Below are positions 1 to 49,655 of a DNA stretch of 64,000 nt, piece after piece. The position numbers and the translations under genes are program-made. Under the pieces are notes generated by a model. That model was not told the DNA's origin, made no database searches, and saw only the letters and a list, made by a program, of their open reading frames with translations. Origin of the DNA: Rhodothermales bacterium (GTDB taxonomy: Bacteria; Bacteroidota; Rhodothermia; Rhodothermales; VXPQ01). How positions within the stretch are numbered: the first letter of the stretch is position 1; every line of letters begins with the position of its first letter. The DNA lies in contig JAJDWX010000015.1 of assembly GCA_022825385.1 (NCBI GenBank), positions 1 to 64,000 of the forward strand. Direction: 5' to 3'.

Positions 1-73
1 CCTCGCAGCCTCCCGAAGGGCGCGTCACGGACGCAACGTACCGAATCTACGGTGTTTTCTGCTGATTTCAATG

Positions 74-141
74 ATCCGGGCATGACGGTCTTTGCGGGCA
101 ATAGGGACGCGCTGAGCGAAGCGGCTTTGATCAGAGTATCC
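74..141 (+). repeat. 68-bp dispersed repeat, copy A
   Basis: This 68-bp stretch matches 11898-11965 at 66 of 68 positions with no gaps, and matches the reverse complement of 43708-43775 at about 54 of 68. It contains a short inverted repeat (CGCTGA facing TCAGAG here, TCAGCG in copies B and C) and ends in the core TTTGATCAGAGTATCC. It lies just beyond the 3' end of folP, as copy B lies just beyond the 3' end of the SDR gene. In one frame it can be read as peptide, but nothing else supports coding. Confidence 0.85.
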
Positions 142-168
142 ACCAATGCGATGATGTTTCGGCGTGGT

Positions 169-10783: not shown

Positions 10784-10845
10784 GGATACGCCGATTAAGC
10801 CTGCAAGGCACAGAGGCTTTCGGGGGGGCGCCGCCGCGGCGCACA

Positions 10846-11892
10846 TTATCCGGTTTCTTCTTGCGCGGCGCGGCGTTGTCGCATCAGCGCATGGTAGCGT
10901 CGGGCGGCCCGCATGTGTTCCGCAAGCGTTCTGCTGAAATGGTGCGTACCGTCGCCCGTCGCGACGAAGTATAAAAAATCATGGCGGGCCGGGCGCGCCG
11001 CGGCGCGCAGCGACGAAGGCGACGGATTGTTCAGCGGCGCTGGGGGCAATCCCGCGCGCAGGTAGGTGTTGAACGGGTGCGGTATGCGGTAATCGCGGTA
11101 GAGCAGGCGGCGTTTGCTCCCTTCCTGTTGCAGTACGATGTACTGTATGGTGGGATCGGCGTCCAGTTTCATGCCAATGCGCAAGCGGTTGTGATACACG
11201 CCGGATATCATGGGTTTCTCCTCCTCGCGCAGGGCTTCCCATTCGATAATGCTGGCGAGGATCGCCACGTCCTGCCTGGACATGCCGAGACTGTCCGCGC
11301 CGGCCCGGAGTTCGCGCTCGAAGAACGCATCGAAGGTTTCGGCGATGGCGCGTACGGCGCGTTCCGCGCTGGCAAGCCAGTAGAAATGGTAGGTTTCCGG
11401 CAGTATGTAGCCGAACAGGGCAGAAGTATCGGTCCGCAACGCGGCGGCGAGCTGCGTATCGGCCAGCGCGGCGGTAAAATCTTCGGGAGCAAAGAACATG
11501 TTTCGGGCCGCTGCCGAGGCCGCCGCCTCGGGACGTACGCCGGGGGGGATTGTGAGACGCACCGGTTCTTGCAATCCGCGGCGCAACGCGCTCAGCATGT
11601 CGTGGTTCGACGCGCCTGCGGCAAAGGCGTAGCGCCCCGCCTTGACCTGATCGCCCCAACCCGTAGCGCGCGCCATGAAACGGAACGCGCCGGTCCGCCG
11701 GAGCACCCCGCTGGCGCGGAGCGAATCGACCGTGGCTTCAAAGGGGGTATCCGGCGGAATGCGCACCGTGCGCCGCCCCTCGAAATCGGGCGTGTTCGGC
11801 GCAAAAGCAATCCATGTCGTCGCCCCAAGAAGCGCCATGCTCCCGGCCGTCAGGACAAGCACGATCTGCGCAATGAGGCGCTTGCGGCGCAT
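10846..11892 (-). CDS. mltG: Endolytic murein transglycosylase MltG
   Basis: Inner-membrane enzyme that cuts nascent glycan strands and so sets peptidoglycan strand length. From the ATG at 11892 it has 348 residues: a cytoplasmic MRRKR, one membrane helix (about 6-28), then the YceG fold. Marks are ETYHFYW, the catalytic-glutamate segment ASIIEWEA, GVYHNRLRIGMKLDADPTIQY and the C-terminal HPFNTYLRAGLPPAPLNNPS, ending in FVATGDGTHHFS. An in-frame ATG at 11907 and a TTG at 11925 lie inside repeat copy B, so the start at 11892 is preferred. It is downstream of the SDR gene on the same strand. Confidence 0.93.
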   Translation of the reverse strand: MRRKRLIAQIVLVLTAGSMALLGATTWIAFAPNTPDFEGRRTVRIPPDTPFEATVDSLRASGVLRRTGAFRFMARATGWGDQVKAGRYAFAAGASNHDMLSALRRGLQEPVRLTIPPGVRPEAAASAAARNMFFAPEDFTAALADTQLAAALRTDTSALFGYILPETYHFYWLASAERAVRAIAETFDAFFERELRAGADSLGMSRQDVAILASIIEWEALREEEKPMISGVYHNRLRIGMKLDADPTIQYIVLQQEGSKRRLLYRDYRIPHPFNTYLRAGLPPAPLNNPSPSSLRAAARPARHDFLYFVATGDGTHHFSRTLAEHMRAARRYHALMRQRRAAQEETG

Positions 11893-11897
11893 GGACA

Positions 11898-11965
11898 ATC
11901 CGGGCATGACGGTCTTTGCGGGCAATAGTGACGCGCTGAGCGAAGCGGCTTTGATCAGCGTATCC
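11898..11965 (+). repeat. 68-bp dispersed repeat, copy B
   Basis: Fills the whole gap between the SDR stop codon (11966-11968) and the mltG start. It matches copy A at 66 of 68 positions and copy C at about 54 of 68. Inside it CGCTGA and TCAGCG can form a 6-bp stem around a 15-nt loop. Read on the minus strand it could act as a weak hairpin after the SDR gene or as leader for mltG. No coding role is supported. Confidence 0.88.
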
Positions 11966-12667
11966 TTAAATGTCCCCTTCCTGCGGACGGAGCAGCAATT
12001 CCTCTACCACGGTGCGGTCGCTCATGCGCCACGCGTCCAGGATGGCTTGCGCGACGTCTTCGGGAGGCATGAGCCGTTCCGGGGGCGTGTCGCTGCCGTA
12101 CCAGCTGGGCGTCCAGGTGGCGCCCGGCAAGATCGCCGTAACGCGCAGCCCGCGCGCCCGCGTTTCTTCCCGCATGGCGCGGGCCAGGCCAAGCAATCCG
12201 TGTTTGGCGGCGCAATAGGCTACCGCGCCAGGATACGCTCGCAACGAGGCTACGGACGCCATATAGAAGATATGTCCGCTGCCCCGGTTCAGCATTTCCC
12301 GAAGAAAGGCCCGGGTAACCATAAAGGCGCTGGTCAGGTTGACGGCCACCTGGCGATCAAAATCCTCGACCGTCGTATCCACCACGGGCCCTGTTCTGAA
12401 AAGCCCCGCATTGTTCACGATTGCGTCCGGCGCGCCCAGGGCGGCGCGTACGGACTGCGCCATCGCTTCCACCGCCGCTTCGTCCGCTACGTCGCACGGA
12501 AACGCATGGGCTTCCGCGCCCAGCCCGCGGGCCAGCTCGCAGGTTTCGCGCAAGCGTTCCTCGCTCCGCGCCACCAGGGCGAGGCGGGCGTCGGGCAAGG
12601 TTGCAAACGCTTGGGCGACGGCCCGGCCAATGCCCTGGCTTGCTCCGGTTATCAGGATGGTCGGCAT
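11966..12667 (-). CDS. Short-chain dehydrogenase/reductase (possible sepiapterin-reductase-like)
   Basis: NAD(P)-dependent Rossmann oxidoreductase of 233 residues. It has TGASQGIG near residue 8, the NNAG motif near 85, the catalytic Ser and YxxxK (YCAAKHG) near 150, and an ILPGATWTPSWY segment after the active site. The ATG at 12667 was preferred to the upstream TTG at 12712, which would overlap the end of folE. It lies directly behind a pyruvoyl-tetrahydropterin-synthase-like gene and folE. In tetrahydrobiopterin synthesis those two steps are followed by an SDR, sepiapterin reductase. That role is inferred from context only; the SDR family is too broad to assign by sequence. Confidence 0.85.
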   Translation of the reverse strand: MPTILITGASQGIGRAVAQAFATLPDARLALVARSEERLRETCELARGLGAEAHAFPCDVADEAAVEAMAQSVRAALGAPDAIVNNAGLFRTGPVVDTTVEDFDRQVAVNLTSAFMVTRAFLREMLNRGSGHIFYMASVASLRAYPGAVAYCAAKHGLLGLARAMREETRARGLRVTAILPGATWTPSWYGSDTPPERLMPPEDVAQAILDAWRMSDRTVVEELLLRPQEGDI

Positions 12668-12716
12668 GGAAAGGGAGTATCTCTGGATGCGTTTGGAGGA
12701 ACCCGGCGGCAAGCCG

Positions 12717-13827: not shown

Positions 13828-13950
13828 GAAAAAAGGACTTCGTGCAGGTCAGAAACGCTTGTCGGGCATAGCGAAAGGCATGCCCCGGCCTTTCTTTGAC
13901 GTTAAACTCGCTCCAATGTTCGTTTAATCCGGGCGAAAGCGGCGGAGCGG

Positions 13951-13984
13951 CGCTCCGGGCGAAGCGGTTTTGATCCGCGTATCC
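13951..13984 (+). repeat. Partial copy D of the dispersed repeat, promoter-like
   Basis: The stretch matches the right half of the 68-bp repeat (GCGAAGCGG then TTTTGATCCGCGTATCC). It is in the divergent region between the PTPS-like gene and the HIT gene, about 70 nt before the HIT start. TTTG at 13970-13973 with TAAGAG about 21 nt on could be a Bacteroidota promoter. Confidence 0.55.
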
Positions 13985-19016: not shown

Positions 19017-19027
19017 TGAAAAAAGAG
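19017..19027 (-). terminator. T-run terminating the SRP RNA
   Basis: Directly after the closing stem of the SRP RNA the minus strand reads CTCTTTTTTC, a six-T run. The RNA's own terminal helix would serve as the hairpin. Confidence 0.6.
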
Positions 19028-19125
19028 GGGCAAGCTCCCCGCATCGCGTCGCTTCGACCTGCTTACTGCTGCTGCCTTCCGGCCCTGACAGGATTCGCAG
19101 GGAGCAGACCGTGCGGAACTTGCCC
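19028..19125 (-). ncRNA. ffs: Signal recognition particle RNA, small bacterial (4.5S) type
   Basis: The minus strand carries the conserved SRP domain IV signature GTCAGGGCCGGAAGGCAGCAG, with the asymmetric loop and GGAA tetraloop region. The first seven bases (GGGCAAG, at 19125-19119 on the minus strand) and the last seven (CTTGCCC, at 19034-19028) are complementary and close the hairpin at about 98 nt. That is the length of a 4.5S RNA without an Alu domain. It binds Ffh and targets membrane proteins. It lies between priA and yajC, apt next to a translocon gene. Confidence 0.92.
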
Positions 19126-19130
19126 TTGCG

Positions 19131-19161
19131 AAGATACCCGTACGAACCGGCTGGGTTCCAA
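19131..19161 (-). promoter_or_regulatory. Putative promoter of the SRP RNA
   Basis: On the minus strand TTGGAA (19161-19156) and TATCTT (19136-19131) are separated by 19 nt. The second box is about 6 nt before the predicted RNA 5' end. Confidence 0.35.
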
Positions 19162-35205: not shown

Positions 35206-35261
35206 TGCGGAGAAGTTTCCAGAACAATATCGCCCCTGGCGCGGTAGCAGGTAAATCAGGT

Positions 35262-35279
35262 TTTGATTCGCGTATCCAC
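35262..35279 (+). promoter_or_regulatory. Dispersed-core match upstream of yebC
   Basis: TTTTGATTCGCGTATCC ends 33 nt before the yebC ATG. TTTG as a -33 box would leave 49 nt from the box to the start codon. This is consistent with a promoter but the -7 box is weak (TACATGCT at 17 nt). Confidence 0.4.
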
Positions 35280-43707: not shown

Positions 43708-43775
43708 AGATACGCTGATCAAAACCGCTTCGCTCAGCGCGTTACTGTTGCATGTCAAGGATGTCATGCTTGCAT
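43708..43775 (-). repeat. 68-bp dispersed repeat, copy C (inverted)
   Basis: Reverse complement of copy B at about 54 of 68 positions; the right half (from GCGCTGAGCGAAGCGG) is nearly identical. It lies in the divergent gap between the ATPase gene (minus) and the cysteine desulfurase gene (plus). Read on the minus strand, TTTG and a TATCTGCA box are 19 nt apart, so it could be the promoter of the ATPase-TOPRIM pair. Confidence 0.75.
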
Positions 43776-43923
43776 TGGTTGCAACGAGCAGAAAAATCGT
43801 AGATTCGGTGCGTAGCGTACGTGTGGGGGACATATAGCCTTCCGGATGCGTTACAGGATAGCATGCTCCTTGATCCCTCGTCCGTCAACCGCGCAGCAAG
43901 CGCTTGGCCCGCGCTCCGCAAGG

Positions 43924-49319: not shown

Positions 49320-49582
49320 GGTTTTACGGACGGTCGGGAAATCGGGAAAGCATTGGCTACGAAAAAGCATGGTTACAAACAAATAGGTTTTCTGGCGGAC
49401 AGTGTCAAGGGGGGGCGCCTGCGGACCGGTACAGAATACGAAGTCGGACACAACATAACGCGTTTTGATCCGTTCGATGGGCGGATCCGCGAAGGCGGTC
49501 GGCCTGATTACGCGGGACCGCCGCACTGCCTGCTTCGTCGTTCCTTGCCAGCGCGACCCGCGCATGCCTCTGAGCTTCGCGG

Positions 49583-49655
49583 ATTTAATCAAAGTATCCT
49601 TAATCAAAGTATACTCCACAGTCTACTTTGAGTATACCGCATAGTATACCGCGCA
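49583..49655. promoter_or_regulatory. Repeat-rich control region upstream of the cytochrome gene
   Basis: This 73-bp AT-rich stretch holds a tandem pair AATCAAAGTATCCTT / AATCAAAGTATACTCC, an inverted repeat TCAAAGTA facing TACTTTGA around a 12-nt spacer, and a direct repeat AGTATACCGC spaced 14 bp. They look like operator half-sites. The first copy also resembles the dispersed core. No regulator gene is adjacent. The whole gap between the sulfatase and cytochrome genes (49320-49667, 348 bp) is otherwise empty. Confidence 0.5.

Follow-up and report, generated by a model that had tools for sequence, protein, structure and literature searches.

A 68-bp intergenic repeat of a Rhodothermales genus is probably the tip of a MITE mobilised by an IS5-family transposase

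What is the 68-bp repeat that recurs at distant intergenic sites on one contig of a Rhodothermales bacterium? The genome (3.02 Mb) is assembled in 49 contigs, and the stretch analysed here, referred to as the window, comprises 64,000 nucleotides (contig C7:1-64000). Copies are found at positions 74-141 (+), 11898-11965 (+) and 43708-43775 (-), as the preliminary description had reported. This description offered a REP-like or MITE-like element, a stable RNA or a promoter module as explanations. The MITE-like reading is the one borne out, by terminal inverted repeats (ITRs), target duplications, a large number of copies, insertion sites that are empty in a relative and an IS that carries matching ends. 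Judged from sequence, the repeat most probably belongs to a MITE, a non-autonomous DNA transposon about 254 bp long, which an IS5-family DDE transposase mobilises in trans; we assign this reading a probability of roughly 0.88.

The limits of the element were found by reading outward from interior copies. The 68-bp repeat corresponds to the right-hand tip of a gene-less element of 252-258 bp, and the length of 68 bp, which had been taken for the unit, is merely the overlap with a truncated copy (copy 2, see below). The full element starts with GGATACTCTGATTAAATCCGCGAAGCTCAGAGGC, ends with GCGCTGAGCGAAGYGGYTTTGATCAGAGTATCC, and is bounded by imperfect terminal inverted repeats (GGATACTCTGATYAARTCC...). 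From six genomes of the genus 106 full copies were gathered, which carry the 19-bp ITR at both ends with at most four mismatches; most of them are 250-260 bp long. The element has the size (50-1000 bp) and the ITR-defined ends of a MITE and is devoid of a transposase. An identical 4-bp word lies flush with both ends in 34 of the 106 copies, compared to a mean of 9.5 and a maximum of 18 in 2000 shuffles, for which the right flanks were reshuffled among copies. A target-site duplication (TSD) of 4 bp, as expected for a MITE, is therefore present. Against this, a flush repeat of at least 2 bp is absent in 54 of the 106 copies. The commonest duplicated words are TTAA (16 copies) and TATA (5 copies), and other words of the NTAA type occur. 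IS5 itself duplicates YTAR at its target (PMC10359306). The 4-mer duplicated by the MITE is broader: TTAA and CTAA (2 copies) fit YTAR, whereas TATA, GTAA, ATAA and TACA do not strictly fit. At some element ends tandem GGATACTCTGATTAA units occur, which look like insertions into the TTAA within an older terminal repeat. A short variant of about 185 bp exists in genomes G003 (e.g. L239-L245) and G005 (L251); it lacks most of the right arm, whereas the left arm and the two terminal repeats are retained.

A profile of 82 full copies was used to scan the window with nhmmer. Copy 1 occupies positions 1-141 (+) and corresponds to the right part of the element (114-254; E = 1.3e-38). Its right terminus reads ...GCTTTGATCAGAGTATCC, and the right terminal inverted repeat GGATACTCTGATCAAAGCC at 123-141 (-) has no mismatch. 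The copy is incomplete because the first base of the window is also the first base of contig C7. Copy 2 at 11895-11965 (+) is a truncated remnant (element 184-254; E = 2.9e-14); two leftward genes flank it, one with its ATG region near 11892 and the other, SDR-like (11966-12712), with its TAA stop. Copy 3 at 43708-43824 (-), likewise truncated (element 138-254; E = 3.6e-23), is intergenic, with a leftward ATPase-like gene on one side and a rightward cysteine-desulfurase-like gene on the other. The right half had been described as the most conserved; this applies to the pieces that were compared, but across the full length of the element, conservation is highest in the terminal repeats and in the left arm. 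Remnants that had been overlooked were also detected. A left-end remnant at 49503-49599 (-; element 1-93; E = 2.4e-20) contains a terminal repeat doubled in tandem (CTTTGATTAAGGATACTTTGATTAA), the pattern expected from a nested TTAA insertion. A weak right-end remnant lies at 13924-13984 (+; element 202-254; E = 1.6e-4), and a weak left-end remnant at 10784-10831 (+; element 1-48; E = 3.4e-4) directly follows the point at which a pdxH-like gene is predicted to end. In total, the window contains 10 terminal-repeat matches with at most three mismatches, compared to 0.12 expected. A terminal-repeat-like stub with two mismatches (35259-35277) is located just upstream of a YebC-like gene and overlaps the 5' extension of the longest ORF of this gene. 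Independently of the element, positions 19024-19132 (-) encode a Bacteroidales-type small SRP RNA in this Rhodothermales genome (Rfam RF04183, 81.6 bits).

Counting copies in the genome and in relatives, as had been proposed at the outset, yielded 41-42 strong matches in the own genome (41 with the query window 60-160) and the full element in all six genomes of the genus, i.e. the own and five others. Many of the 41 matches are situated at most 250 bp from a contig end. The number of copies excludes the alternative that there are only three, generated by duplication of flanking DNA. ITR-like ends with at most two mismatches occur 144 times in the own genome, where the reversed-pattern control gives 0. 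In two complete sister chromosomes of the genus, 354 and 303 ends were counted (controls: 0), with at most one mismatch and a slightly wider pattern than that used for the own genome. Each genome contains dozens of full copies, and fragments are far more numerous. An exact pattern also matches the Rhodothermales bacterium MAGs JAJECT01, OX638293 and OX638295, the last two being the complete chromosomes. The element is absent from all 108 other genomes of the order that were examined, and none was found in phage, plasmid or viral-contig collections. Three features stand out as unusual: the density, with hundreds of ends per 2.7-2.8 Mb, the confinement to a single genus and a well-supported covarying core.

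For 15 insertions of the own genome, the flanks were joined without the element and searched in relatives. In the nearest relative, G001, 12 of these sites lack the element, one (L045) holds a left-end remnant and two (L039 and L057) are occupied; the sites were partly picked for clean duplications, and the proportion of empty ones is no estimate for the whole family. For example, site L049 is exact: G001 reads CGAC-TACA-ACC and the own genome CGAC-TACA-element-TACA-ACC. At L034, the duplicated word is TTAG and spans the stop codon of the gene upstream. Several other empty-site junctions are off by 1-8 bp. Sites that are filled here and empty in G001 indicate the mobility expected of a MITE. 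The flanking duplications that the preliminary description recommended looking for thus exist, flush around about a third of the full copies and reduced to a single word at empty sites.

The element folds strongly. For one copy, the MFE is -134 kcal/mol, compared to -82 kcal/mol for shuffled sequences (z = -10). The predicted fold is a three-way junction whose base is formed by the terminal repeats; the left arm is a long hairpin bearing an inner hairpin, and the right arm is a second hairpin. In 58 copies, 98.4% of the pair cells are standard pairs, both sides have changed in 17 of 60 pairs, and 85 cells are compensatory. None of 500 shuffles reaches the values for standard pairs, both-side changes or compensatory cells, and the covariation is lost when partners are slid by 1-3 columns. 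The kinship of the copies inflates covariation counts, but the two measures that count pairs and types are the more robust. States private to one copy comprise 8 Watson-Crick, 14 G-U, 15 A-C and 23 other combinations; minor states present in at least three copies comprise 19 Watson-Crick, 8 G-U, 4 A-C and 4 other combinations. Since changes in two steps should be less frequent among young states, this split has the value of a trend and not of a formal test. It points to free decay of the resident copies, with pairing kept in the transposing source lineages.

The covariation of a MITE might also arise without any selection on the fold, as a by-product of quasi-palindrome correction. Template-switch correction is known in general for quasi-palindromes; in replication, it would repeatedly make the arms complementary. 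The covarying helices are indeed the arms of long inverted repeats, and the shared minor states are mostly Watson-Crick pairs. However, such a correction should affect the residents too, whose private states are A-C or other in 38 cases and Watson-Crick in 8. Moreover, several of the changes in the inner hairpin are isolated swaps of single pairs (columns 76-101 and 77-100) and not patches copied from the opposite arm. We therefore regard this origin of the covariation as possible, albeit on the unlikely side. More doubtful still is the idea that the three-way junction, as a folded single strand, is required for efficient movement by the IS5 transposase. The folded strand could be DNA hairpins extruded in replication, or an RNA copied from the forward strand. 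If true, such a need would be out of the ordinary among DDE transposons, and it would explain why pairing is kept in source lineages and not in residents.

The gene context of the element rests on gene calls from a simple ORF scorer that uses codon usage and was trained on the window. Only one of the 106 copies is located inside a predicted gene, and 29 gene stops lie within 5 bp of an element end. Among 38 independent cases with codirectional flanking genes, the element runs antisense to the genes in 30 (30:8, p = 5e-4). In copies with a palindromic TSD, which were used to test for target asymmetry, the codirectional ratio is 6:2, which points the same way in a number of cases too small for a decision. 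The bias may result from selection against the better-folding strand in transcripts, from an insertion preference, or from both. A second dispersed repeat, a long palindrome of the form GGGGCCTGTGGTGCGCCTTTTCGCGAA...TTCGCGAAAAGGCGCACCACAGGCCCC, in part followed by TTTTCGCGCCTTACTTTTTAA, has the MITE inserted beside it; it occurs at L053:1300-1500 (contig C48 of the own genome), L082, L088 and about 25 places in G001.

This orientation bias, together with the strong, covarying fold, would also suit a structured ncRNA or a cis-regulatory element (attenuator, RNA stability or processing) that was spread by transposition and is retained by the host at each site. Furthermore, the forward strand is more stable than the reverse strand in 98 of the 106 copies, and G-U cells outnumber A-C cells in the pooled copies (318 versus 93, with pairs predicted from either strand). 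The private mutations tell against it: they are symmetric with respect to G-U and A-C and mostly break pairs, and resident copies therefore look unconstrained. We do not claim selection on the RNA strand of resident copies, because the G-U excess is gone in the private mutations (14:15); among shared mutations, the ratio of 8:4 is not significant (p = 0.39). In addition, most of the sites tested lack the element in G001, many copies survive as truncated stubs, and the better-folding strand is the antisense one. Rfam 15 yielded no match for a full copy up to E = 5, and the Rfam search of the window none to the element. A host function per site is thus very unlikely. Nor is the stable RNA that had been proposed borne out: a covarying fold exists, yet single-copy mutations break its pairing freely. 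The promoter module gained no support from a scan of the element for sigma-70 promoters and terminators, which found none; Bacteroidota promoters lie outside this simple scan.

The parent transposon was sought by a PF01609 search across the genus. Genome G004 contains degraded IS5-family transposase remnants that end like the MITE. At L183 of this genome (1175-1840, 666 bp), GGATACTCTGATTTAATCC...GGATTGATCAGAGTATCC form the ends around an internally deleted transposase; the further IS5 remnants L176, L180, L192 and L193 have kept one MITE-like end each. The ends common to the MITE and the degraded IS5 elements of the genus read GGATACTCTGATYAA-TCC. The MITE hence shares its ends with transposase-bearing elements, all of which are degraded. 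A C-terminal transposase fragment scores 142.9 bits with the NCBIfam model NF033581 of the IS5 family (cut-off 140) and 85.8 bits with PF01609, which places the parent transposase in the IS5 family; plasmid relatives of this fragment carry an IS5 family annotation. No intact transposase with MITE ends was found across the genus, every copy being broken. In the own genome, whose 49 contigs break at repeats, a DNA search detected no IS5 remnant with MITE-type ends. The complete source IS may be absent from the assembly or extinct. The interiors of the MITE and the IS are unrelated, and the MITE is therefore not a simple internal deletion of the IS. At L187:1500-1700 (G001:C10:13348-13511), an IS5 transposase fragment is joined directly to MITE interior in a chimeric remnant.

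A distinct IS5-type element, whose DUF4096 transposase is read in two frames, is 87-97% identical across species. It is present at L181, L178, L182 and L184 of the own genome, at L179 in G001 and at L177 in G002, in several cases at contig ends. The PF01609 matches of the own genome belong to this element, which lacks MITE ends, and they were discarded as parents. The DUF4096 (PF13340) transposase could be the mobiliser in place of the NF033581-type enzyme, as several copies reside in the own genome, whereas the IS with matching ends is represented by remnants in other genomes. However, near the retrieved copies a GGATAC-type terminal repeat is never closer than five mismatches, and the ends of the MITE sit on NF033581-type remnants. 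We thus see little chance for this assignment.

Spreading by homologous recombination or flank duplication is practically excluded: some sites are common to species (L039, L092/L093, L098/L099), but the flanks of the copies are unrelated, 93 of the 106 being independent insertions by this measure, 4-bp duplications are present, and the empty sites with a single target copy already refute it for the most part. The REP-like reading fails as well, since REP/REPIN elements are RAYT-mobilised palindromic units without ITR-type ends and the element at hand possesses ITRs and a 4-bp TSD.

For the MITE, we infer the following mechanism. The IS5 transposase would bind the common terminal repeats and cut there, and the element would be joined to an NTAA- or TATA-like 4-mer. 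In this GC-rich genome, such 4-mers would often include stop codons (TAA or TAG), and the duplication would restore the stop. Insertions at gene ends could survive because of this restoration, while those inside genes would be lost. Old copies would then be trimmed by deletion to stubs of 50-150 bp that fill short intergenic gaps, which would account for the content of the window. Compensatory change in the source lineages, and not in resident copies, would maintain the three-way junction; pairing would therefore matter for propagation, or result from it, and would not provide the host with an RNA function at each site.

Intergenic DNA of the genus is very rich in the element and its stubs, and many contigs of fragmented assemblies start or end inside a copy. 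Annotation and assembly of these genomes thus need the element. Furthermore, the more than 100 copies from six genomes constitute a natural series for asking whether MITE folds serve transposition or the host; the contrast between private and shared mutations points to transposition.

We found no literature on this repeat or on MITEs in Rhodothermales. The family is new but of a familiar kind, and the closest described elements are BrickBuilt and related MITEs of Porphyromonas. BrickBuilt, MITE293 and MITE700 of Porphyromonas gingivalis possess ends that match the IS5 family and long predicted stem-loops (PMC4596501); a Bacteroidota host, terminal repeats of IS5-family type and long stem-loops are thus common to both. 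In contrast, BrickBuilt has other terminal repeats, a core made of a minisatellite and TSDs that vary in length, and it is present in 19 copies (PMC4596501), whereas the Rhodothermales MITE has dozens of full copies, hundreds of ends, a fixed three-way-junction core of about 254 bp and a 4-bp TSD. With IS elements of the IS5 family (NF033581), it shares the terminal repeats of the degraded copies of the genus and a TA-containing target of 4 bp (YTAR, PMC10359306); it differs in lacking a transposase gene and in an interior that is not derived by internal deletion. RUP and BOX of Streptococcus pneumoniae, Correia/NEMIS of Neisseria and ERIC of enterobacteria are likewise MITE-type repeats that are short, intergenic, high-copy and strongly folding (PMC3049150, PMC2229807, PMC10969869). 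They belong to other or unknown transposase families, and as far as is known their sequences differ from that of the MITE. For ERIC, orientation-dependent effects on transcripts have been described (PMC3049150, PMC2229807, PMC10969869).
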